Shown: in pieces, positions 4,467-44,797 of the stretch
How positions within the stretch are numbered: the stretch's first letter is position 1
How the letters are laid out: each line of letters begins with the position of its first letter
NCBI GenBank assembly: GCA_020351835.1
Contig: CP070669.1
Location: forward strand, 441,824 to 488,408
Reading direction: 5' to 3'
DNA from: Nitrospirota bacterium
GTDB lineage: Bacteria; Nitrospirota; Thermodesulfovibrionia; Thermodesulfovibrionales; BMS3Bbin05
Length of the DNA stretch: 46,585 nt
Notes under the pieces: model-generated
What the model saw: only the letters and a program-made list of their open reading frames with translations
Databases searched by the model: none
What the model was told of the DNA's origin: nothing
Program-made: the position numbers and the translations under genes

Positions 4467-5067
4467 GATCTCCCATTAACTTCACAAGACAATCCTTTAC
4501 ACCTTCTCGAGCCCTGAACAAGCGTGATCTGACAGTACCGGAAGGTATCCCCAGCGTCTCAGCTATCTCATCATACGATAGACCCTGAAGGTCCCTTAGT
4601 ATTATCACAGCCCTGAAGTCCTCCTCAAGCCCAGCTATGCATTTATGGACCCTTTCCCTTATATCATCACTTTCAAGGATCTCCAGAGCCGACCGATCCT
4701 TCGAGGCAACATCTATATAAATACTACCATCCTCCTTCGTGATCGGAGCGTCTATTCTAAGTTCTCTCCCCCCCCTGGAACCCTTCTGCTTCAACCTGTT
4801 CCTCGCTCGGTTCATTACTATGGCATGCAGCCATGTCGAGAACCGCGCCTCTGATCTGTATTTCCTCAGTCCCTTATATGCGGCTATGAACGCCTCCTGT
4901 AATACATCACATGCGTCATCGTAGCTATCGAGCATTCTGAAGGCAACGTTCAACATCGGCTTCTGATACCTGCTAACAATGCTCTCAAAGGCTTCAATAT
5001 CTCCCTCCAGACATTGTTTGACAGCCCTGAGGTCCTCATCATTTTGCTTTTCCTTCTCTTCCTTCAT
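4453..5067 (-). CDS. ECF (RpoE-type) RNA polymerase sigma factor
   Basis: A sigma-70 family extracytoplasmic-function factor of 204 residues (208 if TTG 5079 is used). Region 2 is seen as AFESIVSRYQKPMLNVAFRM with DACDVLQEAFIAAY, and region 4 as ILRDLQGLSYDEIAETLGIP followed by GTVRSRLFRARE, the helix-turn-helix that reads the -35 element. The anti-sigma gene overlaps its 3' end. No Shine-Dalgarno precedes either candidate start. ATG 5067 is chosen because an RpoE-type promoter places its -10 box at 5076-5072, across the TTG, so a transcript from it could not contain the TTG codon. Probably an envelope-stress regulator that controls itself. Confidence 0.9.
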   Translation of the reverse strand: MKEEKEKQNDEDLRAVKQCLEGDIEAFESIVSRYQKPMLNVAFRMLDSYDDACDVLQEAFIAAYKGLRKYRSEARFSTWLHAIVMNRARNRLKQKGSRGGRELRIDAPITKEDGSIYIDVASKDRSALEILESDDIRERVHKCIAGLEEDFRAVIILRDLQGLSYDEIAETLGIPSGTVRSRLFRAREGVKDCLVKLMGDHGEL

Positions 5068-30752: not shown

Positions 30753-31790
30753 ATGATAGACCTTAAAAGCCTTTCTGAGGAAGAGATCCATCGCTCGATG
30801 GAAAATGAGGGATTACCAAAGTTCAGGGCACGTCAGCTTCTTCACTGGCTATATGAAAGAAACGTTAGCGACATAGAAAGCATTACTGAACTTTCAAAGG
30901 AACTGAGGTCGAGGCTTTCCAGATCCTATTTCATTAGCAAACCGAAACTGGCCAGAGAAGAGGTCTCGCAGGACGGGACATCAAAATACCTGTTCGAGCT
31001 TTCGGACGGACAGGACATCGAGAGCGTATTGATCCCGGACGGAGACAGGCTCACTCTATGTGTTTCGTCACAGGCAGGCTGTTATCTGAAATGCGCTTTC
31101 TGCCTCACCGGCAAGGCAGGCTTCAGAAGGGACCTCAAGCACTACGAGATAACGGACCAGGTCCTTAGCGTAAACAATATTATCTATCCAAAAAGAATAA
31201 CCAATATCGTCCTTATGGGCATGGGAGAGCCTCTTCTGAACTTTGATAATGTAGCAAAGGCCGTCGATCTCATAACGAAGTATGTCAAGATATCAAAACG
31301 AAGGATAACCCTGTCTACAGCAGGAATAGCAAAGGAGCTGAACCGTATCGGCCGGGACATGCAGATGGTAAATCTGGCCGTTTCTCTTAATGCCCCGAAT
31401 GATGTGACAAGGTCAATGCTGATGCCGATCAACCGGAAATACCCACTTAAGGACCTTATAAAGGCTTGCAGGGAGTTTCCTTTACCTACTCGCAGAAGGA
31501 TAACGTTCGAGTACATTATGATAAAGGACACTAATGATTCAGTTAAGGATGCGGTTGATGTGGTCAAGCTATTAAAAGGGATCCCCTCCAAGGTTAACCT
31601 TATACCACTAAATCCCGTTGCCGGCATAATGCTTGAACGCTCATCGGACAGGACGATACACGAATTTCAGAAGATATTACTGAAAAACAACGTGACAGCC
31701 ATTATAAGGAAGAGCAAGGGTGCTGACATATCCGCGGCCTGCGGACAGCTACGAGGCAAGCATCCGGCCGGTATTGATCAGCCGATATAG
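30753..31790 (+). CDS. rlmN: RlmN, dual-specificity 23S rRNA/tRNA C2-adenosine methyltransferase
   Basis: A 345-residue radical-SAM methylase that methylates A2503 of 23S rRNA and A37 of some tRNAs. The cluster motif is C110-x3-C114-x2-C117 (GCYLKCAFCLTG). The two catalytic cysteines are C103 (TLCVSSQ) and C330 (ISAACGQL). GMGEPLLNFDNV is the conserved SAM-site motif. The start ATG 30753 lacks a Shine-Dalgarno; TATAAC lies 11 nt upstream. Its 3' end overlaps the convergent cheY gene by 13 nt. It ends in TAG. Confidence 0.95.
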   Translation: MIDLKSLSEEEIHRSMENEGLPKFRARQLLHWLYERNVSDIESITELSKELRSRLSRSYFISKPKLAREEVSQDGTSKYLFELSDGQDIESVLIPDGDRLTLCVSSQAGCYLKCAFCLTGKAGFRRDLKHYEITDQVLSVNNIIYPKRITNIVLMGMGEPLLNFDNVAKAVDLITKYVKISKRRITLSTAGIAKELNRIGRDMQMVNLAVSLNAPNDVTRSMLMPINRKYPLKDLIKACREFPLPTRRRITFEYIMIKDTNDSVKDAVDVVKLLKGIPSKVNLIPLNPVAGIMLERSSDRTIHEFQKILLKNNVTAIIRKSKGADISAACGQLRGKHPAGIDQPI

Positions 31791-32143
31791 TTGTTTACAA
31801 GCTTGATAAGTTCCTGCGTCTGGATAGGCTTGGGCAGATAATCATTAGCCCCGATCGACAACGCCCTCTTCTTATCTTCTTCCGCCCCCTCCGTTGTTAT
31901 GATAATTACAGGGATGTCCTTTAATTCGGGATTCCCCCTAACGAGACTTACGAGCTTAAGCCCATCCATAACGGGCATATTAATATCTGCCAGGATAAGA
32001 TCGACCTTCTCCGCAGAAAGTTTCTTAAGGGCATCAACCCCGTCGGTCGCTTCAATTACCTTAGAGTCAGGGACTCTTTTCATAGCAAAGGATATGAGCT
32101 GTCTCATTGTAGGTGAGTCCTCAACGACAAGTATTGTAGGCAT
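31778..32143 (-). CDS. CheY-like single-domain response regulator (last gene of che operon)
   Basis: A 121-residue receiver domain. The acidic pair is in VVEDSPTMRQL, the phosphoacceptor Asp in ILADINMPVMDGLKLV, the switch Thr in IIITTEGAEEDKKRA and the Lys in DYLPKPIQTQEL. No output domain. It is the tail of the eleven-gene chemosensory operon and overlaps the 3' end of rlmN by 13 nt. It may be the operon's output regulator or, given two CheY proteins, a phosphate sink. Confidence 0.92.
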   Translation of the reverse strand: MPTILVVEDSPTMRQLISFAMKRVPDSKVIEATDGVDALKKLSAEKVDLILADINMPVMDGLKLVSLVRGNPELKDIPVIIITTEGAEEDKKRALSIGANDYLPKPIQTQELIKLVNNYIG

Positions 32144-32155
32144 TAACTCTCCCCC

Positions 32156-32953
32156 TTACGCCGGCTTATCCTTTAGTAGCTGCAAAAAGCCCTGTATCGT
32201 GGTCAATTTTCTTTCGGACTGAGTGTAGAGCCTGGAAGAGAATATCGCTGTAGCCGCATGTCCCGCAAGCAGGTTGAACAGCTCAAAATCCACATTTGTG
32301 AACTTCTCTTTTTGAATGAGAAGAGAATAGATCACAATAACACCTATTACATGCTCCTTGATCTTTAACGGTATACAGACCATAGGCTTCTCAAAGTCTA
32401 TCTCGTCCGAATATGATATCTCCTCAGCGAAATAGCTGTCGCCTTCTTTGGAGACCCTGCCTATTATCCCCTGTCCAAGTGCAACAGAAGGTATTTCAGT
32501 ATCATAAATGCCCTCAGATTTCACAGATATAAGTTCGTTAGTCTTCTCATCCATTATCATTATAGAGAACTTCTCGGCGCCTATCAGGTTAATCACTATC
32601 TCAATGACTATTTTAAGCACCTCTTCGAAATCCAGAGTGGAGTGAAGCTGATAGCTGGCAACGTACAGGTTTGCGAGGTTATTGTTCTCCTCTTCCACTT
32701 CAACATACTTTGTGGCAAAGTCTTTGTTCTCAGCCTCTACTTCCTTGTATCGTTCCTTCAGAGAGGTCAGTTCATCATCCAGCAGCTTTATCCTGTCCTC
32801 ATACAACTTGACCTTTGCATCATCCGAAGTTTGCTTGAGGGTTTCCTCCGCTTCGGCAAGTCGATACCTCAGTTTCTCGTTCTCCTTGAGAAGTTCCTTT
32901 GTGAACTCCTCTCCTTTACGGAACATCTGTAAGAATTCATCATGGCTTTTCAT
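32156..32953 (-). CDS. coiled-coil GAF-domain protein
   Basis: A 265-residue protein. Residues about 5-95 form a long charged coiled coil (LLKENEKLRYRLAEAEETLK, then DELTSLKERYKEVEAENKDF). A GAF domain follows (about 100-245: ASYQLHSTLDFEEVLKIVIE, then GAEKFSIMIMDEKTNELISV, then GQGIIGRVSKEGDSYFAEEI). There is no kinase or cyclase output. It lies between cheB and cheY near the end of the operon. It may be a ligand- or phosphate-sensing adaptor for the array; the GAF ligand cannot be read from sequence. A second GAF protein opens the operon. Confidence 0.85.
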   Translation of the reverse strand: MKSHDEFLQMFRKGEEFTKELLKENEKLRYRLAEAEETLKQTSDDAKVKLYEDRIKLLDDELTSLKERYKEVEAENKDFATKYVEVEEENNNLANLYVASYQLHSTLDFEEVLKIVIEIVINLIGAEKFSIMIMDEKTNELISVKSEGIYDTEIPSVALGQGIIGRVSKEGDSYFAEEISYSDEIDFEKPMVCIPLKIKEHVIGVIVIYSLLIQKEKFTNVDFELFNLLAGHAATAIFSSRLYTQSERKLTTIQGFLQLLKDKPA

Positions 32954-32977: not shown

Positions 32978-34066
32978 CTATTTTCCCTTAAACAAACTCA
33001 CGAACTCATCCGGTATACTATGCAGCGGCCTTACCAGATCAGCGGCACCGCTGTTTATTGCCTCACGCGGCATCCCGTAGATAACCGCCGTCTCTTCCGA
33101 CTCAGCTATAGTATAACCGCCTTTCTTCTTAATTTCCAGCATCCCCTTCCTTCCATCATCTCCCATTCCGGTTAGTATAACACCAACCGCATTCTTTCCG
33201 AAACTCCCGGCCACCGACCTCATCATATGGTCGATAGAAGGCACATACTTATCTGTGCTGCGCTGCCCCTGCAGGACTGTATAATAATATCCTTTCTTCT
33301 TCTTCACTCCCATATGCAAACCTCCGGGACATATATAGGCCGTAGACGGTGAGATCAGATCGCCGTCCTTTGCCTCTTTTATCGTTATCGCCGATAACCG
33401 GTTCAGTCTTTCAGCAAGTGACTTTGTAAAGCCCTTCGGCATATGCTGACTGATAAGGATGGCAGGCTTGAACTTCGCTGGCAAGCTCGTAAGCACAAGT
33501 TGAAGCGCGGCCGGACCGCCAGTTGATGACCCTATCGCGATAACATCGGTCAGACGTTTCCCGGCAGGTGTCTCGGGCAGATCTTCTTTACGGGCTTTGG
33601 GTTCGGCTTCAACCTCGTCCATCTCGGATATACGCTCAAGGTTACCCCTTAATTTATTGAGGGACATCTTCTTAATATTAAGGACCTTTTCGAGCAGGTC
33701 GCTCTGTATGCTCCTCAGTTCCTCCGAGGCCCTGCGTGTCGGTTTTGCTATAAAGTCGACAGCACCGAGCTCGAGAGCTTTGAACACGGTCTTGGAATCC
33801 GAATATGAGCTAACCATTATCACGGGGGTCGGCTGCTCCTTCATTAGCCACCTGAGAAAAGCAAATCCGTCCATCTCTGGCATCTCAAAATCCAGCGTTA
33901 TGATATCAGGCTTGAAGCGAATGGTCTTCGCTATGGCATCATACCCGTCAATGGCGACCGCCAGGGTCTCTATATTGCTGTCGGTCTCGAGCATCTTCTT
34001 TATGGTCTGCCTGCTGAAGGCAGAATCATCCACTATCAAGACCCCTGTCTTCTTGGCGGGTGCCAT
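32978..34066 (-). CDS. cheB: CheB, protein-glutamate methylesterase
   Basis: A 362-residue adaptation enzyme. The receiver domain has phosphoacceptor D59 (ITLDFEMPEMDG), a linker of about 60 charged residues follows, then the esterase with the catalytic triad S181 (GSSTGGP), H208 (SQHMPKGF) and D304 (GMGDDG). It demethylates or deamidates receptor glutamates when phosphorylated by CheA. The start ATG lies 2 nt after the cheR stop. Confidence 0.96.
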   Translation of the reverse strand: MAPAKKTGVLIVDDSAFSRQTIKKMLETDSNIETLAVAIDGYDAIAKTIRFKPDIITLDFEMPEMDGFAFLRWLMKEQPTPVIMVSSYSDSKTVFKALELGAVDFIAKPTRRASEELRSIQSDLLEKVLNIKKMSLNKLRGNLERISEMDEVEAEPKARKEDLPETPAGKRLTDVIAIGSSTGGPAALQLVLTSLPAKFKPAILISQHMPKGFTKSLAERLNRLSAITIKEAKDGDLISPSTAYICPGGLHMGVKKKKGYYYTVLQGQRSTDKYVPSIDHMMRSVAGSFGKNAVGVILTGMGDDGRKGMLEIKKKGGYTIAESEETAVIYGMPREAINSGAADLVRPLHSIPDEFVSLFKGK

Positions 34067-34068
34067 AA

Positions 34069-34935
34069 TTAGCTACCTTTCCTTTCTCTTCCGGGCTTCT
34101 GGTAAACCATATCGTTCTTCAGGTGGTTCAATGTAAAGGCGGTCGAGATGTTTATCAGTGATTCGGCATGGCCTAACAGCAGGAACCCTCCGTCATTCAT
34201 CCGGTCATGGAACATATTAACCACTTTCTTTCTCGACTCAAGGTCAAAATATATCATAACGTTCCTGCAGAAGATCACATCAAAATGTCCCAGGAACTTG
34301 ATCTTAAACGGGTCAAGAAGGTTCATGTAACTGAAATTGACGAACGCTCTGACCTCATCTGAGATCTTATAAGTGGAATCACCACTTTTCGCAAAGTATC
34401 TCTTCTTATAGTATTCCTCAGTGGTCCTGAAGGAATTATTCCTGTAGACCCCTTCTCTTGCGACGTTAAGCACCCTCTGATTGATGTCACTCCCAACTAC
34501 CTCAACATCCCATCCCCGGAACCTTCCGCTCTCAATGAGCAGCATGGCTATAGTGTAAGGCTCCTCACCCGTTGAGCATCCAGCAGACCATACCCTGAAC
34601 TTTTTCAAGCCTTTTTTCTTTTCCTCCATCACTGCTAGTATCTCATCCGAAAATGCTGCCAGCTGGTTCTGCTCCCTGAAAAAATAGGTCTCGTTAACCG
34701 TAAGGATGTCCATTATAGCAGCCAGCTCTTCTTCTCGCCTTTTGTCGTACCTTAGAAACCTGTAGTAATCGCGGAAGTTCTCAAAGTGGTGTCCTGCAAC
34801 CCTTCTGGCAAGCCTTCTTTCAACTATATACTTGGACCCATCATCAAAGAATATTCCGCAATAGTCCCTTACAAGGTCCCTGATGAGCCTGAATTCCTGA
34901 TCCCCGAGGGGTATATTTATCTCACTTGTCAGCAT
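34069..34935 (-). CDS. cheR: CheR, chemoreceptor glutamate methyltransferase
   Basis: A 288-residue SAM-dependent methyltransferase. The N-terminal helical domain (about 1-80: LVRDYCGIFFDDGSKYIVER) precedes the catalytic fold with WSAGCSTGEEPYTIAMLL (SAM site), VVGSDINQRVLNVAREGVY and DVIFCRNVMIYF. No C-terminal TPR is attached. It overlaps the HEAT-repeat gene by 14 nt. It pairs with CheB for receptor adaptation. Confidence 0.95.
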   Translation of the reverse strand: MLTSEINIPLGDQEFRLIRDLVRDYCGIFFDDGSKYIVERRLARRVAGHHFENFRDYYRFLRYDKRREEELAAIMDILTVNETYFFREQNQLAAFSDEILAVMEEKKKGLKKFRVWSAGCSTGEEPYTIAMLLIESGRFRGWDVEVVGSDINQRVLNVAREGVYRNNSFRTTEEYYKKRYFAKSGDSTYKISDEVRAFVNFSYMNLLDPFKIKFLGHFDVIFCRNVMIYFDLESRKKVVNMFHDRMNDGGFLLLGHAESLINISTAFTLNHLKNDMVYQKPGRERKGS

Positions 34936-36904
34936 TCAGTGCTTCCTTTATAGAGTACTGGACGGTCGGGTCCTTCTCGTCCTCAAGCATCATTTCAAGT
35001 GAATCCCTTATCTCCGGTGTCATTTTCTTTCCGAGGACCTCAACTGCTATCTTTCTGGTAGCCCAATCCTCGTCCTTGAGGAAACCGATCATCCTCTCCT
35101 CCACCCCATCATAACCAGCAAGAGCGCTTATAGCCGTTCTCTTTATCTCCTCATCTTCGCTCTCTAACATGGGGAGCAGAGCTTCCCTGGCATCCTCAGA
35201 GCCTATCTTACCTATAGCTTCAATGGATGCGGCAACAACAAAACCGTTATCATCACCAAGGGACCTCATAAGCGGTTTAAGTGCCTTCTTATCGGGAACA
35301 ACACCCAGTGCCTTGGCTGCTGCTACCCTGACAGCTTCATCACTGTCCAGAAGAAGAAGTATAAGATCGTCTATTGCAACACTATCTCCTATCGCACCGA
35401 GTGCGTATGCGGCCTCTATCCTGATATCGGACCTTTCGTCGGTAAGGGCCACTTTCAGATATCTGATGTTCTCCGGGTCCCTGATCATGGATAGAGATCT
35501 GACCGCAGACCTTCTTACAGAAACATCGGCATCCTTTACCAGAAAACCTATTGATGAAAGCGCCTCAATGGCATTGATATTGCCCAGAATAAGGCAACAA
35601 TTCCTCCTGATCCTTACGTCATCGTCCGACAGCCCGCTGATAAGATCATCGGTCTTGATGCCTTCTTTTAACAACACAAGTGCATCGACCGCGGCTTCCT
35701 GTACATCCATATAACCATCCTTAAGAAGTGGCCTTATCAGAGCGGCCTTTGACGGGTCACCAAGCTTTGCCAGCCCCGTTGCTGCTGACCCTCTTACATG
35801 TCCGTCATCGTCACCCAGAAGCTCCTCGAAACGCCCTGAGAACTCGACCCTGCCGGTCTCAACTGCCACGTCAACTATGAACCTTCGCTGAAAGATATTA
35901 AGAGTATCGAACAAACCCATTATAAAATCTGGTGAGGCCCTGCCTATGAACACAAGCGCTTTCTTGATCTCATCTCTGAACTCCTCTTCAGATGTCATAT
36001 CAAGGAGGGGCTGCACGGCCTTTGGGTCTTTCATTATCCCCAGCATAAGTATTGCCGACAACCTTATGTCAGCTTTATTGCTCCAGGCAAACTTCAGAAG
36101 AACGTCGAAGGCCTCATCGCCAAGATAATTCGAAAGTTTACCGACGATGATATCCTCATCAACCCCTTTTTTATAGAATCTATTTACCGTCCTCAATACC
36201 TCCTCTTTGACGCTTCTTGATCCTGTCATCAAAAGAGGGATTATACTGTCAAGAGTATCCGGTTCGGCAAAGCATCCTAGAGCTCTAAGGGAAGGTTCCC
36301 TCAGGGTCTTGTTCTCAAGTGAGCTTATAAGGGGAGCTATCGCCTTCCTGTCACCGATCCTCCCGAGCGCGTCGGCTGCGGGATATGCGATCCACAGGTC
36401 ATCCCCTCCCAGTATCTCTATAAGGGCATCAACTACTGACGGCTCCTTTAGTTTACCCAGATGCTCAACGGCTGATGCCTTAACGTTCTCATCTTCATCC
36501 TTTAATGCGGTTAGCAAAAGCGGAAGAGCACGATCATCGGAGATCTCACCTATTACGTCTATAACGAACTTCCTTACATCATGGTTGTCCGTTTCAAAGG
36601 CCTTGAGAAGATCAGGTATAACTGTTTTCCCCAGAGAAACGAGCATGTCGATGGCGCTGTTCCTTGCCCCTGCATTATCTTCTATATAAAGCAGGGATAT
36701 AACGCCATCTATGTATTGATCGACCTCGAACTGTTGCTTCAGGATCCCGGTGGCGGTCTTCCTTACACGCCAGCTCTGATCCTTCATCGCCTCGATGAGA
36801 AATGGTATGTCGGCCTTATCGGCGCTTTCCTTTAGCGCATCTACTGCCTGCCTTTTCTCTTCGGTATTGTCACTTCCGAGTATCTTCTTCAGGTCCTTTT
36901 TCAA
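34922..36904 (-). CDS. HEAT-repeat protein of the chemosensory operon
   Basis: A protein of about 660 residues built almost wholly of HEAT/PBS-lyase-type repeats of roughly 30 residues. Examples: WRVRKTATGILKQQF, VDALIEILGGDDLWIAYPAA with DALGRIGDRKAI, and YALGAIGDSVAIDDLILLLL with SDEAVRVAAAKALGVV. About twenty repeats are visible and there is no other domain. The start is uncertain: TTG 36904 has GGAG 7 nt upstream, while TTG 36943 has AGGAGA at 4 nt; both lie inside the 3' end of cheW. HEAT proteins are scaffolds; position between cheW and cheR suggests a role in the array or in coupling it to an effector. HEAT-like proteins are also known in some Myxococcus chemosensory clusters. Confidence 0.88.
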   Translation of the reverse strand: MKKDLKKILGSDNTEEKRQAVDALKESADKADIPFLIEAMKDQSWRVRKTATGILKQQFEVDQYIDGVISLLYIEDNAGARNSAIDMLVSLGKTVIPDLLKAFETDNHDVRKFVIDVIGEISDDRALPLLLTALKDEDENVKASAVEHLGKLKEPSVVDALIEILGGDDLWIAYPAADALGRIGDRKAIAPLISSLENKTLREPSLRALGCFAEPDTLDSIIPLLMTGSRSVKEEVLRTVNRFYKKGVDEDIIVGKLSNYLGDEAFDVLLKFAWSNKADIRLSAILMLGIMKDPKAVQPLLDMTSEEEFRDEIKKALVFIGRASPDFIMGLFDTLNIFQRRFIVDVAVETGRVEFSGRFEELLGDDDGHVRGSAATGLAKLGDPSKAALIRPLLKDGYMDVQEAAVDALVLLKEGIKTDDLISGLSDDDVRIRRNCCLILGNINAIEALSSIGFLVKDADVSVRRSAVRSLSMIRDPENIRYLKVALTDERSDIRIEAAYALGAIGDSVAIDDLILLLLDSDEAVRVAAAKALGVVPDKKALKPLMRSLGDDNGFVVAASIEAIGKIGSEDAREALLPMLESEDEEIKRTAISALAGYDGVEERMIGFLKDEDWATRKIAVEVLGKKMTPEIRDSLEMMLEDEKDPTVQYSIKEALNADK

Positions 36905-37361
36905 GTACCGGCTCCATCCTTTCCTTTGATTCCTTAAGAGCAAGTTTCTCCTGCGCAGTTAGAATAGTGTCAGTATTGAGAAGCACTATTACTCTCTCAC
37001 CTCTTCTTCCCAGCCCTACGAGATATTCAGGCTTAAATCCCTTGAAGATACCCGGCGGAGCGCCGATCTCATCCGGCTCAAAGTCCAGTATCTCCCTCAC
37101 GGCATCTATATACAGGCCTACTCTTTGACCGCCTACCCAGACTATCATTATCCTTTCTCTGTCCGGTTTGCTCTCTATCTGGAAGCGCTTTCTCAGGTCC
37201 AGCACGGGTATGACCGCACCCCTGAGATTTATCACCCCCGCAAGGAACTCGGGCAGGTCAGGGATAGTAAAGATCTTGATAGGATTCAGTATCTCTACCA
37301 CACGGAAGATATCCACTCCAAACTCTTCCTCTCCTACACTGAATACAGCATATTGAGCCAT
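36870..37361 (-). CDS. cheW: CheW coupling protein (first of two)
   Basis: A 163-residue CheW. The paired beta-barrel pattern is clear: AVFSVGEEEFGVDIFRVVEI, then DLPEFLAGVINLRGAVIPVL, then GLYIDAVREILDFEPDEIG. The C-terminal 25 residues are highly charged. It links CheA to receptors. Its 3' end overlaps the start of the HEAT gene, which is read in another frame. Confidence 0.93.
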   Translation of the reverse strand: MAQYAVFSVGEEEFGVDIFRVVEILNPIKIFTIPDLPEFLAGVINLRGAVIPVLDLRKRFQIESKPDRERIMIVWVGGQRVGLYIDAVREILDFEPDEIGAPPGIFKGFKPEYLVGLGRRGERVIVLLNTDTILTAQEKLALKESKERMEPVLEKGPEEDTRK

Positions 37362-37388: not shown

Positions 37389-40238
37389 TCAAAGCTCATC
37401 GAGCTTTGACATCTTATCCCTTATGCTCATATAATCGACATCATCAGCAAGCGTGAAACCGGTATAGTTCCTGTCTATTGCTCTTAAAATGACGCTATTC
37501 TCCGCGTCCGAATCATCAAGTGCGAGGACAGCGTCCTGTACTTCCGTGGCATCATCATCGGAGACCGCCCGCCCGGCGCAGATATTGAACTCCGGGATCT
37601 CTTCAGAGAACTTAACAATCTTCAGACCTTCCTCCTTGAACTTCAAAGCCGTAGACTCCATAACACCGCCGGCGTCGAACTCGCCATTAAGCACAGCCTT
37701 TGCGACAGCATCCTGTCTATTTAAGAAATTATAGTGAGTCAGGTCATTAAGGCCGATGCCTGCTTCATTTAGCATTGACCTGGGAACTATATAACTTGAC
37801 GTTGAGTTTTTGTCACCGAAAGCAAAGGACCTTCCCTTTATATCCTTTATCTCTTTGATACCCTTGTCCGGATTCGCGATTATGGCCGAATGATGAAATG
37901 GCTTACCGTCTCTAAGGGCCTTTACAAGTACGCGCACACCACCTTCCTTATTGGCCCTTATGTACGTCGAGGGGGTCATGTAACACATCTGGGTAACTCC
38001 CTCAATAATGTCCGAGACAGCCTCATTAAGGTCCATAGCCACTTTCAATTCGAACTTCTTCCCCGTTCTCTTTGAAAGATAGGTCATCAGCGGGCTGAAC
38101 CTGTTGAACATCTCTGCAGGCGAGGCTAAAGGTACCACGCCGAACTTGATAACATCTTCCATCCGGACATCTACGAGATTAAACTTGCGCATCTCTGTCA
38201 TCATGAGTTCAGCATCTTCCTTCAGGTCACGCAGTGATCTGTTCAGCACAAATGCCCTTTCCCGGTTCTCTTCCGGAAGTTGCAATATGTTATTAATGGC
38301 CTTCTTGATATGTACTGCACCCTCTCTTTGCTCACGGAGAGCGACAGATATCTGGTGGGTATTGTCCGATACGGTATCCATCGCCTTTGCCATCTGAATG
38401 CTGCTAGAGGACTGCTCTTCAGAGGCGTTCTTGACCTGGGCCGTGATATCCCTGACCTTTTCCGTTGCCTCCATTATCAACGATGCACCTTTGGCCTGCT
38501 CCGAAGTTGACCGTGCTATCGATGAGATCATAGCTCTTACCCTGTCCATCGATTCGCTGACAAGCGCCACCGCCTTAGCCTGCTGTTCGGTTGCCTTTTC
38601 GATGGCCGCTGACATTTCGGACGACCTTTCGGCGCTCGCGACGATCTTACTTAGAGCATCAGAGGATTTCTCTGCTATTTTAAATCCCTCCTGCACTGAG
38701 GCCACACCATCCTCCATGGCTTTTACTGCATCTCCAACCTCTGTCTGTACTGATCCAATGAGGGCAGATATCTCCTGGGTCGAAAATGAGGTTCTCTCTG
38801 CAAGGTCCTTGATCTCATCGGCAACCACCGAGAACCCCTTACCATGTTCACCGGCCTGTGAGGCCAGGATGGCCGCGTTAAGTGCAAGAAGGGTCGTCTG
38901 TTCCGTTATCTCGTCTATCACGTTCAATATCTTTCCCACCTCTTCAGACCTGTCGCCAAGCCTTCTTACTATACCCGCAGTTCTTTCAACAGTCTTCCTG
39001 ATCAGTTCCATTCCGTCAATGGTCTTCTTCACCGAACTCAATCCAACGTTCGTGGCATCGTCAAGTACCTTGCTGGAAAGGGCCGACGACTCCTTTGCGT
39101 TCCTTTCAACTTCCTTTATGGAACTGTCAAGCTCTGACATGGCGGTGTTGGTGTCATCAGATGAAAGAGCAAGTTTATCCGCTCCAGCCGAGACCTCCTT
39201 GATAGTTATGGACATTTCCTCGATCGAGGCAGACGTGTCCTCCATCGCAGAGAAAAGGCTTAATGTGTTCTTACCTATCTGAGTAATGCTCGCGCTCATC
39301 TGCTCCATCGAGGCTGCGATCTCCTCTACTGTCGCGGCAAGGCTGTCAGAGCCCTCCGATATCTCAGAAATTGCTACGTTAAGTTCGTCGACCGACGATG
39401 ATATATTATCAATGGCCTCCCCCTCTACCTGCGTCCCTTCAAGCACCTTTCCGGACTCATTCTCAACCGTCGAAGCCACTCTCGATATCCTTGCAGAAAC
39501 ATCACTCACCCTCCCGAGGATTCCTGATATCGAACGCAGTGATTCTTTCATCGCGTCACTGAGCCTTTTTATCTCATCGTTGGACTCGATGTCCACAGGG
39601 AACGACAGATCACCATCCGCCAGCATCATTGCTGCATTTTCAATGCTGCCTATCGGCCTTATGACAACCTTTCTCAACGCGAATATCATGATCAGTGATA
39701 ACGCAAGGATCGCAAAGAACGATGCTATGATGCTAGTTATAAGCATCTTGTTCAACTGCTTTTTCTCAAAATCCTTGGGAACGGATATCTTGATCGCTCC
39801 GAGCATCGGTTTGTCAGCACCATGGCATGTCTGACACTCTGGTCTGTTTATCAGAGGCTTGTAAATTATGTGGGCATCATCCGTATCGTCGAGTATAACG
39901 TCTTTCTTTTTCATGAGCTGCGCCATGGCCTCGGCCTCTATAGTAATACCCATATTCGTGAATGCCTCGCGACCCGCACTGTTGAAGACGCCTATGTCCT
40001 CTACGCCTTTTGATGTCAACAGGTCATGAACCAATGCCCTGGTAACTTCGGGATCACCATTGAGCATCGTCCTCTCTATGCTCTTTGAGATCACTATCGC
40101 CGTTTCTTCGGCTCTTACATCAGTAACCGCATGCAATGAGTTCCTTTCCATCTTTATCACAACCGTGATAGCAAAGACACATCCAGCCAGCAGGATCACC
40201 AGTATTACCGCGAGCACCTTGTTCTCAAGCCTCTCCAT
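37389..40238 (-). CDS. methyl-accepting chemotaxis protein with c-heme sensor and C-terminal PhnD-like domain
   Basis: A 949-residue chemoreceptor. Order: TM1 (about 8-29), a periplasmic sensor (30-164) containing the c-heme motif C135-Q-T-C138-H139, TM2 (165-187), HAMP (about 188-245), then the long cytoplasmic signalling coiled coil with its conserved tip around residues 440-490 ([20 protein letters not shown]). After the signalling domain, from about residue 695 to the end, is a PhnD/phosphate-phosphonate-binding-like domain ([20 protein letters not shown], then [20 protein letters not shown]). No further membrane helix separates it, so it should be cytoplasmic. The heme site suggests redox or small-gas sensing. 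The fusion adds a second ligand input directly at the array. Confidence 0.92.
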
Positions 40239-40249
40239 CTATGCCTCCT

Positions 40250-41155
40250 TCATAACGGCAAAGGTTCAAAATCCAGAACCTCACTTATTTTTATGATAGA
40301 TATGAACCTGTTCCCTACATTCACAACGGAGTCAATGAATCTTATCTGGTCATCATCGAGGTGAGACGGAGGCTCCATAATATCATCCTCCTCGACCCTT
40401 TTTACTCCCACGACCTTGTCTATGACCATTCCTATGGGCCCTCTGGTCCCCTTAATGATAGCAATCTGCTTTTTCCCGGTCTCTCTTTCGCCCTTTATCT
40501 CCAGCCTTCCATTGAGGTCCATCACCGGAATTATCTTTCCTCTAAGCGAGGTAAGCCCGATTATGAAAGAGGGCATCTTAGGAACACGTGTAAGTATCTG
40601 GTCCTTAAGAACCTCCTGAAGGTCAGACAATCTGAAAGCATAGAACTCATTCACAAGGTTAAATACCAGTAGCTCCACGAGAGGCCTGAACTTTACTACC
40701 TCTACTTCTTCCCTTGTCTCGGGCAGTCCTTCTTCTGAAGGCTGGACCTCATTGCCGGTATCATCAAAAGGAGCCGAGACATCGCCCTCATTAACCGGTT
40801 CTGTTTCCTCATCGACATAAGGTTCTTCTGTGTCAATAATTCCCTTTTCCCTCTCAGCTTCTTCCAGAGCAAGCGCTACCGCTTCTTCTTCCGCTCTGGC
40901 GGCCTCTTCCAGTGCAAGTTCCTCAGCTTCCAATGCCTTTATTTCTGCTTGCACCTCCATCTCTTCCTCAATTCTCGCATTATTTTCTTTAGCCTTCAGG
41001 GACGGTCCCTTCTTCTCCTTACCGGCCGGTCTTGTCTTTGCCCCGGTCCTCTTCGCCTTTTTTGCCTTTACCTTAGGCCTGGCCTTAGGGGTCTTCTTCG
41101 CTTTGGGCTTAGCCGTCGCGGTCTTTTTCTTTGTTTTTTTCTTCTTGGTTCCCAC
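40250..41155 (-). CDS. CheW-domain protein with a long Lys/Ala-rich and acidic N-terminal extension
   Basis: A 301-residue protein. Residues 1-55 are extremely basic (KKKK, TKKKTATAKPKAKKTPKARP), much like histone H1 tails. Residues about 57-150 are acidic and Glu/Ala-rich (EIKALEAEELALEEAARAEE), probably helical. A normal CheW domain follows (about 158-298: LVFNLVNEFYAFRLSDLQEV, then IIGLTSLRGKIIPVMDLNGR, then GMVIDKVVGVKRVEEDDIME). The start is GTG with AGGA at 8 nt. The basic part could bind nucleic acid, membrane or the acidic part of a neighbouring molecule. It lies between cheA and the receptor gene. Confidence 0.9.
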   Translation of the reverse strand: MGTKKKKTKKKTATAKPKAKKTPKARPKVKAKKAKRTGAKTRPAGKEKKGPSLKAKENNARIEEEMEVQAEIKALEAEELALEEAARAEEEAVALALEEAEREKGIIDTEEPYVDEETEPVNEGDVSAPFDDTGNEVQPSEEGLPETREEVEVVKFRPLVELLVFNLVNEFYAFRLSDLQEVLKDQILTRVPKMPSFIIGLTSLRGKIIPVMDLNGRLEIKGERETGKKQIAIIKGTRGPIGMVIDKVVGVKRVEEDDIMEPPSHLDDDQIRFIDSVVNVGNRFISIIKISEVLDFEPLPL

Positions 41156-41219
41156 TTATCTTATCCTGCATACCTTCCAGCTGCTTTATGCTTATTTATG
41201 CATACAATGGAATCACCGC

Positions 41220-43232
41220 TCAAACCGTCAAACGCTCCCTTTTCTTTATAAGCACATGCTCAATAATGGCCTCTACGTCAACCACCAGCACTATCTCATG
41301 TTTTCCTATCTCAGTTGCACCGGCAAATCCCTTGAGCCCCTTGAAATAATCGCCAAGTGATTTTATGACTATCTCATGCTGGCCAAAGAGCTCATCCAGA
41401 AGAAATCCCATCTTTCTTTCGGCAAAGCCCACCACTACAACATACTTAGAACCCTCGACATCATGCTCTATATCGAACACATCGCCAACATTAACTATAG
41501 GAAGCAGTTCTCCCCTTAGGTCAACCACCATCCTTCCCTCTATCGTCTGGATCATCTCATCAGTGACCTCGAACGATTCAGTGATGGATGTCAATGGTAT
41601 AGCGAACCTTTCCGCACCTACCCTAACCATCAACGCCTTAAGGATAGCAAGGGTTATCGGTAGAGTAACTGACATTGTTGTACCCATGCCAAGCTCTGAT
41701 TCTACCGTCACAAATCCCCCGAGGTTCGATATGCGGTCCTTTACTATATCCATGCCGACGCCGCGGCCGGAGACCTCCGTAACTGATTCAGCCGTAGAGA
41801 ACCCCGGCAGGAATATCATCTCCATGATCTCCCTGTTAGAGTAATCATCAGACAGTGCAACGAGCCCCTTCTCTATAGCTTTGCTCTTTACCTTTGCCAC
41901 ATCGATCCCGTTACCGTCATCTATGACATCAACGACAACATGATTACCTCGCTGGTAGGCCTTAAGAATTATTGTGCCCTCAGGGTCCTTGCCCCTCTTG
42001 ATCCGCTCTTCTTCATTTTCTATTCCGTGGTCTATAGCGTTCCTGACAATATGCATGAGGGGGTCAACCGCTTCTTCGGCCAGGAACTTATCTATATTGG
42101 TATCCTCACCGAACAGATTCAGGTTGATCTTCTTCCCGGACTGCCTGGAGTACCTTCTAATGATCTGAGCAAGCCTTGAGAATATCTGCCCTATCGGTAT
42201 CATGCGAATATTAAGCACCTGGTCCTGAAGGGCCGATACCCAGCGTTCAAGAGATTGCGCAACCTTATAGGTATCCACAATTAGAGGCTTGTATCCGTAT
42301 CCTTCGAACAGCTCCTGCCCTATCCTTCTAACAGCGCCCTTGGCAAGATTAAGCTCTCCGATAGTGTTAAGTATGCCATCCAGTTTATCTATATCAACTC
42401 TTACCGTAGATGAAATGCTTTTAATGGATGCGCTAGGGCCCTCCATCCTTTTTTCCGGTATCTGATCCGACCTGGCCGGCACCTCGGGCGTTTTCTCGGA
42501 CTCGGATCGTCCCGAAGCGGAAACGAGAGTATCCAGCTCTTCTCCTAGCTCATCCTGAAGGTCCTGAGCAAACATCGAACTGCCTATTATCAGATTGAAA
42601 CCTATATGGCCTGCAGGAACATCATCAGAGGTAGGCAATGTCGAGAGCAGCTCACCGGAACTCTTTATCTTTTCTGTCAGCTCAGACAAACGGATATCAA
42701 AATCATCCAGAGAGAACACTACCCTTACGGAATAAATATTGCTACCGTCCTTTATGTTAGCCTTAAGCCTGTGTTCCTCATACTCCGATAGAACGCTCAG
42801 GACCGAGTCGTCTATCATTCCGCTGAGATCAAGCTCGCTCTCTTTAGCCCCTGAACCTTTTGTGAACTCATCTATCTTATTCAGATGCTCAGCGACATCC
42901 TCTACGCTCTCCCCCTTGTCATCTTTGACCAGTCCTCTTAGGGCATCAATATTATGCAACAGGAAATCACAAAGGTCACCCGTTGCACCCATCTTGCCCA
43001 GACGAAGGTCATCGAGCAGTGATTCCAGCTTATGGCTGAGCTCTGTTATGCCCTGCAGTCCGAACAAGCCCGATAACCCCTTGAGAGTGTGCATATCCCG
43101 GAAAAGAGCGTTAACGCTGTCAGGATTAAGCTTCCCGCTCTCTATTGACTCCTGTATCTCCAAAGTAAGGTCCTGCGCGCTACCCAGCAGATCTTCAGCT
43201 TCACTTATGAACTCGTTCTTAGATGTGCTCAT
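41220..43232 (-). CDS. cheA: CheA histidine kinase
   Basis: A 670-residue chemotaxis kinase. P1 has the phosphorylatable H48 (RDMHTLKGLSGLFG); a P2-like segment follows (about 155-235: YSVRVVFSLDDFDIRLSELT); the dimerisation region P3 begins near SSTVRVDIDKLDGILNTIGE; the ATPase P4 has MHIVRNAIDHGIE, DDGNGID and GRGVGMDIV; P5 is CheW-like. The start ATG overlaps the cheY stop as ATGA. Phosphoryl acceptors are the two CheY proteins and CheB. Confidence 0.97.
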   Translation of the reverse strand: MSTSKNEFISEAEDLLGSAQDLTLEIQESIESGKLNPDSVNALFRDMHTLKGLSGLFGLQGITELSHKLESLLDDLRLGKMGATGDLCDFLLHNIDALRGLVKDDKGESVEDVAEHLNKIDEFTKGSGAKESELDLSGMIDDSVLSVLSEYEEHRLKANIKDGSNIYSVRVVFSLDDFDIRLSELTEKIKSSGELLSTLPTSDDVPAGHIGFNLIIGSSMFAQDLQDELGEELDTLVSASGRSESEKTPEVPARSDQIPEKRMEGPSASIKSISSTVRVDIDKLDGILNTIGELNLAKGAVRRIGQELFEGYGYKPLIVDTYKVAQSLERWVSALQDQVLNIRMIPIGQIFSRLAQIIRRYSRQSGKKINLNLFGEDTNIDKFLAEEAVDPLMHIVRNAIDHGIENEEERIKRGKDPEGTIILKAYQRGNHVVVDVIDDGNGIDVAKVKSKAIEKGLVALSDDYSNREIMEMIFLPGFSTAESVTEVSGRGVGMDIVKDRISNLGGFVTVESELGMGTTMSVTLPITLAILKALMVRVGAERFAIPLTSITESFEVTDEMIQTIEGRMVVDLRGELLPIVNVGDVFDIEHDVEGSKYVVVVGFAERKMGFLLDELFGQHEIVIKSLGDYFKGLKGFAGATEIGKHEIVLVVDVEAIIEHVLIKKRERLTV

Positions 43233-43600
43233 TTCTTAAGGGCTGCTCTAATAGCCTCCTGAAGCTCTTCGGCCTTGAAAGGTTTTGTTATATATGCCTC
43301 GGCACCGAGTGACATACCCCTGTCCCTGTCTTCCTCGCTTCTTTCTGTCGTCACTATGATCATGGGAATGTCCTTATAGGCCTCGTTGTTCTTTACGAAA
43401 CTTATAAGCTCGAGGCCGTTTATGTCAGGCATGTTGATATCTGTGATTATGAGATCGAAGGTCTCGGTGGGTAAGGCCTTCAGGGCCTCAAAACCGGTCT
43501 CTGCCTCAAAGGCATCAAATTCGTCACCGAGGTCTTCAATGACAGTTCGTATGAGGGACCTTGTAGTTGATGAATCTTCGACGATAAGTATATTACCCAT
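43229..43600 (-). CDS. cheY: CheY-like response regulator (upstream of cheA)
   Basis: A 123-residue receiver. Acidic pocket in IVEDSSTTRSLIRTV, phosphoacceptor Asp in LIITDINMPDINGLELI, Thr in MIIVTTERSEED and Lys in AYITKPFKAEEL. It overlaps cheA by 3 nt. The sequence is close to the CheY at the other end of the operon but differs in the loop after the acceptor Asp (MPDINGLEL against MPVMDGLKL). Confidence 0.95.
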   Translation of the reverse strand: MGNILIVEDSSTTRSLIRTVIEDLGDEFDAFEAETGFEALKALPTETFDLIITDINMPDINGLELISFVKNNEAYKDIPMIIVTTERSEEDRDRGMSLGAEAYITKPFKAEELQEAIRAALKK

Positions 43601-43693: not shown

Positions 43694-44797
43694 CTAGCCG
43701 TTCATCTCGGTAAGTCTTCTCTGCAGTATGGCCTTCTCCAATGCCATGCCGGCCTGAGTTATGAATATCTCCAATCCTTCAGATTCGGCGAACGGATCAC
43801 CGGATCCCAGGTTATCCACGTAAAGAAAGGCAACCACCCTTCCTTCAGCGATGATCGGGAACAGGGCGACCTCTGACGGCCATTTCCCTCCAAATACCCT
43901 TATCATGAACTCAGTACCCTCGTCCTTCCTGAGCACCCCCCGGTAAGGCTGGGCATTATCGATCACCTCTTTAAGGCTCGGGCTCTTATTTACATCGAGA
44001 ACTGTCTCCCTTATTTTCTCATCCGCCCTGTCTATCTCAAGGCCGAACTGTCCCAGCCCCGCCATTTCTTCAGGCCCGACCATAAAAAGAACGCCTCTTT
44101 GATACATATCACTGGCGAACCTCAGGATAAGCAGTGTTATCTCGGATGTTGAGTTAGGGAATCTTAGCTCCTGAGTAAGCGCCCTCAACGCTGAAAGGTC
44201 CTTTCTTACAGGCGCCGGCGGACTCTCCCAGTCCTCATCTCCTTCACTAACGTCAGTAAAGAAATCCTCATCGGGGGTAAAGCTTTGGTGTGCCGTCTCA
44301 TCATATACCCTTGCCCCCTCCATAAGCAGGTATTCAGGGCTCATACCTTTGCTTATCTCCCATCCACTATCCGGAAGATCTATCTTATCCCTCACATCGA
44401 GCTCATCAAGCTCGAACTGGAACTCTCCGTCCTCCCAAAGAAGCAGATTGTATACGACCTGCTCTATCCTCTTTCTGCCGATCTTATCAAGATGGTCCCT
44501 GTTGATAGCACCCATCTCCAGAATTATCTCGGCAATGGGTTTATCCGGCAGGTCTTTTTTGACAGATTCTATCATTGGGAACATCGAGTCCTTAAGAAGG
44601 CCGGCACTAACTAGGTCCTGGGAAATGTCACTTTCAAGCACATCGGATTCGGCGTTAACGACCAGGCCGTCCTTGAACAGGACCATGGCATTTCCGCTGT
44701 CCGACCGTATCAGCAAAGCGCCGGTCTTTTTACCGACACTGAGTATCTGAAAGATATCAGAGAGAGCGAGGTCCTCTAACCTGCCTATAAGGCTCAT
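43694..44797 (-). CDS. PATAN (DUF4388) plus GAF-domain protein, first gene of che operon
   Basis: A 367-residue protein. The N-terminal DUF4388/PATAN domain is about residues 1-155 (SLIGRLEDLALSDIFQILSV, then KTGALLIRSDSGNAMVLFKD, then YNLLLWEDGEFQFELDELDV). An acidic linker follows (about 170-195), then a GAF-like domain (about 205-360: EITLLILRFASDMYQRGVLF, then VALFPIIAEGRVVAFLYVDN). AAGGA lies 4 nt before the ATG. PATAN proteins occur with two-component and gliding/pilus regulators. It may be a target of the receiver proteins. The region 44798-45069 upstream is AT-rich and contains the operon's promoter, which I could not pinpoint. Confidence 0.87.
   Translation of the reverse strand: MSLIGRLEDLALSDIFQILSVGKKTGALLIRSDSGNAMVLFKDGLVVNAESDVLESDISQDLVSAGLLKDSMFPMIESVKKDLPDKPIAEIILEMGAINRDHLDKIGRKRIEQVVYNLLLWEDGEFQFELDELDVRDKIDLPDSGWEISKGMSPEYLLMEGARVYDETAHQSFTPDEDFFTDVSEGDEDWESPPAPVRKDLSALRALTQELRFPNSTSEITLLILRFASDMYQRGVLFMVGPEEMAGLGQFGLEIDRADEKIRETVLDVNKSPSLKEVIDNAQPYRGVLRKDEGTEFMIRVFGGKWPSEVALFPIIAEGRVVAFLYVDNLGSGDPFAESEGLEIFITQAGMALEKAILQRRLTEMNG

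Follow-up and report, generated by a model that had tools for sequence, protein, structure and literature searches.

Receptor, CheW and CheA are generally regarded as the only components that a chemosensory array requires. In anatomy, the closest described protein to the one analysed here is FrzCD of Myxococcus, in which a basic N-terminal peptide of ~30 residues is followed by a predicted helical region of more negative charge; according to the available parts of the report, deletion of residues 7-27 abolished DNA binding, and the basic tail is shared among FrzCD orthologues (S7 Fig legend) (PMC5716589).

In gene content, the closest counterpart is the Geobacter beta group (class 40H, Esn; GSU2220-2222). 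In the available parts of the respective studies, GSU2220 (CheW), GSU2221 (ATPase) and GSU2222 (CheA) were joint Tn-seq hits for electrode growth of G. sulfurreducens, a role confirmed by deletion of GSU2220 and of GSU2222 (PMC5585712), and a long-term evolution study of 2026 reports no mutations in GSU2220 or GSU2222 (PMC13194489). Tran and others described a beta group of such clusters, with unpublished mutants that affect the extracellular matrix, and the same partially available paper mentions an NWETF-like pentapeptide (PMC2577667).

Results

The chemosensory operon

The window, that is, the whole stretch of DNA analysed (46,585 nucleotides), lies in a 2.29 Mb genome of a Nitrospirota bacterium assembled as a single contig. 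It contains the following chemosensory operon.

43694..44797, minus strand: DUF4388 protein, with which the conserved cluster begins (Pfam, synteny)
43229..43600, minus strand: cheY-like receiver (Pfam)
41220..43232, minus strand: cheA (Pfam)
41156..41219, minus strand: 64-nt gap between cheA and cheW, the site of an ExeA-like AAA ATPase gene in most relatives
40250..41155, minus strand: cheW with an N-terminal arm (cheW-arm), 301 aa, GTG start (ORF, Pfam)
37389..40238, minus strand: MCP with an Mcp40H-20 sensor containing CQTCH, HAMP, an MCP signalling domain and a C-terminal phosphonate-binding-like domain (Pfam, sequence)
36870..37361, minus strand: second cheW (cheW2), without the arm (Pfam)
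34922..36943, minus strand: HEAT-repeat protein (Pfam, synteny)
34069..34935, minus strand: cheR (Pfam)
32978..34066, minus strand: cheB (Pfam)

The order in the window (DUF4388, cheY, cheA, cheW-arm, mcp, cheW2, HEAT, cheR, cheB) includes, in order, the class-40H/beta-group set of DUF4388, cheY, cheA, cheW, cheW2, HEAT, cheR and cheB. Geobacter-type loci run DUF4388, cheY, cheA, ExeA-like ATPase, cheW with an N-terminal peptide, cheW2, HEAT, cheR, cheB, the same gene set and order as in the operon of the window's relatives. Most Geobacter-type loci show no MCP within the cluster, whereas the window operon has one, and both the ExeA-like ATPase and the MDIAKIRKK-bearing cheW of the class-40H/beta group are absent from the window genome. 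Gene order leads us to infer that the peptide-bearing CheW, expected to open with MDLAKIRKK, is GSU2220, that the orthologous ATPase is GSU2221 and that their cluster is the beta group. Across the window's taxonomic order, 53 loci from 101 genomes, some of them cut by contig ends, mostly keep the gene order and often include an extra MCP. The other operon proteins of the window are not unusually diverged, an indication that its chemosensory system is in use.

In the MCP, two hydrophobic segments, recognised by eye, flank the haem-type sensor. The sensor is c-type haem-like, and the phosphonate-binding-like domain (residues 699-936) forms the C-terminal end and is presumably cytoplasmic. A homologous MCP, usually of ~950 aa, comes next after cheW in most relatives. 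Operons of two phyla retain the HEAT-repeat protein (34922-36943, minus strand, in the window). Beyond cheB, a coiled-coil protein and a CheY are found at 31778-32953 (minus strand), and a similar coiled-coil ORF follows cheB in relative L197.

The N-terminal arm of CheW

The 301-residue CheW is divided as follows.

40991..41155, minus strand: hyperbasic tail, residues 1-55, net +24, in place of the relatives' MDIAKIRKK (charge count)
40847..40999, minus strand: single acidic helix, residues 53-103 (AlphaFold2, charge count)
40682..40846, minus strand: disordered acidic linker, residues 104-158 (AlphaFold2, charge count)
40271..40675, minus strand: CheW domain, residues 161-295 (Pfam PF01584)

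Residues 1-55 comprise 22 Lys, 3 Arg, 9 Ala, 5 Pro, 7 Thr and one Glu, among others, in agreement with an earlier note on this DNA that had described a Lys/Ala/Pro-rich tail of ~55 residues on CheW. That note had also recognised a normal CheW domain behind the tail, and PF01584 indeed matches with 88.2 bits against a curated cut-off of 23.5 (E 4.8e-25). AlphaFold2 predicts the CheW fold with confidence, gives low confidence to residues 1-52, a tail that comes out as disordered, and places a helix at residues 53-103, with ten-residue block means of 87-96 across residues 61-100. Residues 56-158 hold 36 Asp and Glu against 9 Lys and Arg (net −27); the acidic stretch given in the note as about 90 residues is thus borne out, with a helix, at a length nearer 100. 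The gene is placed between cheA and mcp, and its product is a putative binder of CheA and receptor.

The GTG start lies immediately after an in-frame TAA and has a well-placed AGGA 8 nt upstream, which led us to reject a frameshift or misread start as the source of the tail. An upstream ATG was rejected as the start, being out of frame, with a purine-rich stretch just 1 nt off. No repeat array was detected in the tail, and tandem-repeat expansion was set aside as its origin.

We compared the arm with those of 93 orthologues, 53 from the same order and 40 from a class-wide search. The first 55 residues contain 25 Lys and Arg in the window protein, and none of the 93 orthologues reaches 20. Over the same span, net charge in the 92 orthologues uncut by a contig end averages −1.5 (sd 3.2, maximum +7), and the 93 orthologous loci hold 1531 stop-to-stop ORFs of 150 aa or more, of which a single one, a putative gene, has a 55-residue stretch of net charge at least +22. 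The charge of the window tail exceeds chance expectation.

The most basic orthologues (L082, L088, L304 and L305; best net +7 over 55 residues) are all members of family f6, and the window comes out as sister of f6, with support 0.978, in a tree built from CheA, MCP, CheW and CheY. The tail is therefore the extreme of a trend within the f6 clade and not a property of the family. In three f6 proteins (L304, L305 and L082) the N-terminal peptide is followed by a lysine-rich stretch of net charge up to +12 in 30 residues. The earlier note had named absence of the tail from close relatives with the same operon as an outcome that would refute its reading, and the tail is absent in 93 of 93 relatives. 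The extreme tail is known from one genome only, in which we found no second protein with the same tail. A first scan of genome contigs for relatives found none. The only other genome of the genus is without the cluster, with two CheW matches in total, which leaves no close relative for a test of the tail.

The N-terminal peptide of orthologous CheW

The peptide M-D-[I/L]-A-K-I-R-K-K, or a close variant, opens 86 of the 93 orthologues; six are without it and one is truncated. By text pattern, 78 matches are strict and 7 variant, and L281 adds one in a shifted frame. In L281 (genome G407, about positions 2572-2865) the peptide stands right behind the ATPase stop in a different frame from the CheW domain, probably through an assembly frameshift. 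The pattern script counts nine absences, the window included, and the peptide-ATPase table described below counts seven, L281 being taken as peptide-bearing and L055, whose arm is cut by a contig end, being set apart. Three genomes (G418, G421 and G427) lay outside the fetched loci; their model matches start from position 1, and the ATPase is present in each of them.

In an alignment of 47 rows chosen for having the peptide, M1, D2, R7 and K9 are invariant and A4, K5, I6 and K8 are each conserved in at least 90%. Third codon positions of the peptide vary outside the loci where cheW is overlapped by the upstream gene, so selection acts on the peptide as protein. AlphaFold2 predicts, for one orthologue, a helix at residues 3-15 followed by a disordered linker.

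The nucleotide pattern of the peptide occurs in 51 of the 101 genomes of the order, with a single match in each, 50 of them at the cheW-arm gene, and a reversed-pattern control gave 1 match. Phylum-wide, 64 of 395 genomes carry the pattern. A scan of the genomes of 84,980 species gave at least 80 loci, a sample that includes Thermodesulfovibrionales and other Nitrospirota records. Among the matches listed, 38 of 80 loci are complete CheW near the query family and 21 are complete, more distant CheW, mostly of Desulfuromonadales; all of these complete CheW start with the peptide. The remaining listed loci encode either truncated CheW or unrelated proteins that do not evidently start with the peptide. 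No relic or copy of the peptide was found elsewhere in the genome of the window, the one two-mismatch match reading as unrelated sequence.

The linked ATPase

The gene found between cheA and cheW in most relatives encodes a protein of about 278 aa that belongs to AAA_22 and matches TIGR03015, the XrtA/PEP-CTERM system-associated ATPase, below the cut-off; we label it ExeA-like. Residues invariant in this group and specific to it (R40, E47, F145, F154, Q155, D157 and N160 in L044 numbering) are candidate sites for contact with the peptide. Wherever cheA is in view, peptide-bearing loci have the ATPase (73 of 73). Counted over whole genomes, 85 have both peptide and ATPase, 1 has the peptide only, none has the ATPase only and 7, including the window genome, have neither (Fisher 8e-10, kinship ignored); the pair is present in 85 of 94 orthologue genomes. 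Fitch parsimony on a 79-taxon tree gives seven separate changes, which we read as losses.

For these counts the best 10 candidates per genome were scored, genomes without the motif were rescored with all candidates, and the matches in G350, G203 and G226 (41-43% identity) were treated as paralogues. With all candidates scored, the motif-less genomes contain only paralogues of at most 41% identity and a 5' remnant in G071; the window genome has no orthologous ATPase, its nearest match being a 35% paralogue. The sole genome with the peptide and without the ATPase is G047, where the cheA that accompanies the ATPase in the sister genome G004 is also absent, likely an assembly gap or the loss of a whole locus.

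In most loci of families f2, f10 and f13 the end of the ATPase gene and the start of cheW share 20 nt, read in different frames. This overlap freezes the first cheW codons, which explains how alike they are in these loci, and it means that one deletion can remove peptide and ATPase together. Upstream of the peptide-less cheW at 4538 in locus L050 (G071) lies an ATPase 5' remnant of ~57 codons, with 68% identity over 56 residues, as expected of a deletion unless the region is misassembled. Where the operon is split, in families f4 and f8, the ATPase lies beside cheA in 8 of 8 fetched loci, apart from a cheW that keeps the peptide. In the distant peptide-cheW loci, mostly of Desulfuromonadales, an ATPase of 44-52% identity (three matches partial) lies directly upstream in all 22 examined among the matches listed. 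The unlinked and non-overlapping cases argue, at the level of sequence comparison, for what may be a working link between peptide and ATPase.

Overlap as the explanation of the peptide was discarded, given that the peptide persists where the genes are unlinked, where they do not overlap and beyond the overlapped codons. The HEAT protein was likewise discarded as a partner whose loss explains that of the peptide, being kept in motif-less genomes. Among the other proteins of the operon, a column scan for residues that change with peptide loss singled out no clear partner site. Among the papers listed by a literature search, mostly outside subscription journals, there was none on the CheW peptide, its ATPase or the pair.

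Discussion

That a conserved CheW peptide tracks an AAA ATPase in two phyla suggests an additional, energy-using component of the array. The arrays concerned govern surface growth in electroactive bacteria, and G. sulfurreducens, with electrode-growth phenotypes already known for the three genes, is a direct test system; the window genome is a natural loss of peptide and ATPase, with an unusual replacement.

Judging by the comparisons above, we think it probable that the window gene is the cheW-arm of the conserved operon, that in this operon the peptide docks the ATPase, and that the arm turned hyperbasic after the ATPase was lost. The relatives' arm consists of a short N-terminal helix with the sequence M-D-[I/L]-A-K-I-R-K-K and of the long disordered linker that carries it. 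The peptide would be a putative docking site through which CheW may bring the ATPase to the array or regulate it there, the CheW domain itself keeping its normal role. The window lineage lost both peptide and ATPase, and once the ATPase was gone the arm would have been released to evolve into a hyperbasic tail; the lysine-rich extensions behind the peptide in f6 already show such a trend. If the tail has a job, the likeliest is that of a weak anchor, electrostatic in nature, to either DNA or acidic lipid. An account in which a family of CheW proteins in Nitrospirota and Desulfuromonadales docks a dedicated AAA ATPase, one acting on the array or placing it, and in which the window CheW took over the anchoring, after loss of the ATPase, with a histone-like DNA-binding tail, strikes us as improbable.

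It is quite possible, though we lean against it, that the tail is functionless and that the arm drifted to low-complexity lysine-rich sequence after ATPase loss. The loss of both peptide and ATPase from the window genome fits drift, as do the uniqueness of the tail among 94 proteins and the short, unlike arms of the other motif-less relatives, but one acidic residue in 55 with no detectable tandem repeat is extreme for drift, and the reading frame is still open. The earlier note had suggested that the array might be tethered to the nucleoid or membrane, or that the basic and acidic parts may bridge neighbouring CheW molecules. A nucleoid tether, with a tail that binds DNA non-specifically and keeps all or part of the array at the nucleoid, would have a precedent in FrzCD of Myxococcus xanthus. 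Both proteins are chemosensory and have a histone-like basic tail followed by an acidic helical region (for FrzCD, as described in the available parts of PMC5716589), the window tail has net +24 in 55 residues and the f6 relatives also have lysine-rich stretches. However, the FrzCD tail sits on a cytoplasmic receptor and is reported to be shared among its orthologues, whereas the window tail sits on a CheW with putative DNA binding and is found in 0 of 93 orthologues with the operon. Moreover, the two hydrophobic segments of the neighbouring receptor, which is apparently membrane-bound, imply that the arrays should be membrane-located, and the acidic part after the tail would oppose contact with DNA. 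We therefore regard such a tether as doubtful; it would in any case explain the tail only and is compatible with an ancestral docking arm.

Other readings concern the peptide itself. Joint loss might come about only through single deletions that take both of the overlapping genes, the peptide serving another partner such as CheA or HEAT; the 20-nt overlap in most f2, f10 and f13 loci, the ATPase remnant adjoining cheW in G071 and the HEAT gene in the shared cluster are all consistent with this. We consider it rather unlikely, given that the peptide is retained when the ATPase gene lies elsewhere or does not overlap cheW, and that the ATPase is never present in a genome lacking the peptide. HEAT is kept in at least three peptide-less genomes (the window and those of L050 and L069) and is thus not what peptide loss follows. 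The docking reading also has to be set against a peptide that activates an array-positioning ATPase of ParA/MinD type, as the partners of such ATPases have in common an N-terminus that is short, disordered and positively charged (PMC7993993 and PMC10241942, both available in part). PomX, ParB and TlpT likewise have a disordered arm tipped with a short basic peptide and are tied to an ATPase. These partners activate their ATPases, whereas the ATPase here is of ExeA/AAA_22 type, not ParA, and its activation is putative. No cognate ParA/MinD-type ATPase is encoded with the peptide-bearing CheW: the operon has no ParA-type gene, ORFs with KGGxGK[ST] occur in only 5 of 93 loci, and the CbiA matches listed for the window genome lie hundreds of kilobases away. 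A ParA-type partner is accordingly very improbable.

Within chemosensory arrays, the docking arm that we favour for the relatives would have a parallel in the NWETF-type receptor tethers for CheR, which likewise combine a short docking peptide with a flexible tether. In contrast to these, the peptide described here is basic, N-terminal and carried by CheW, with a different proposed partner.
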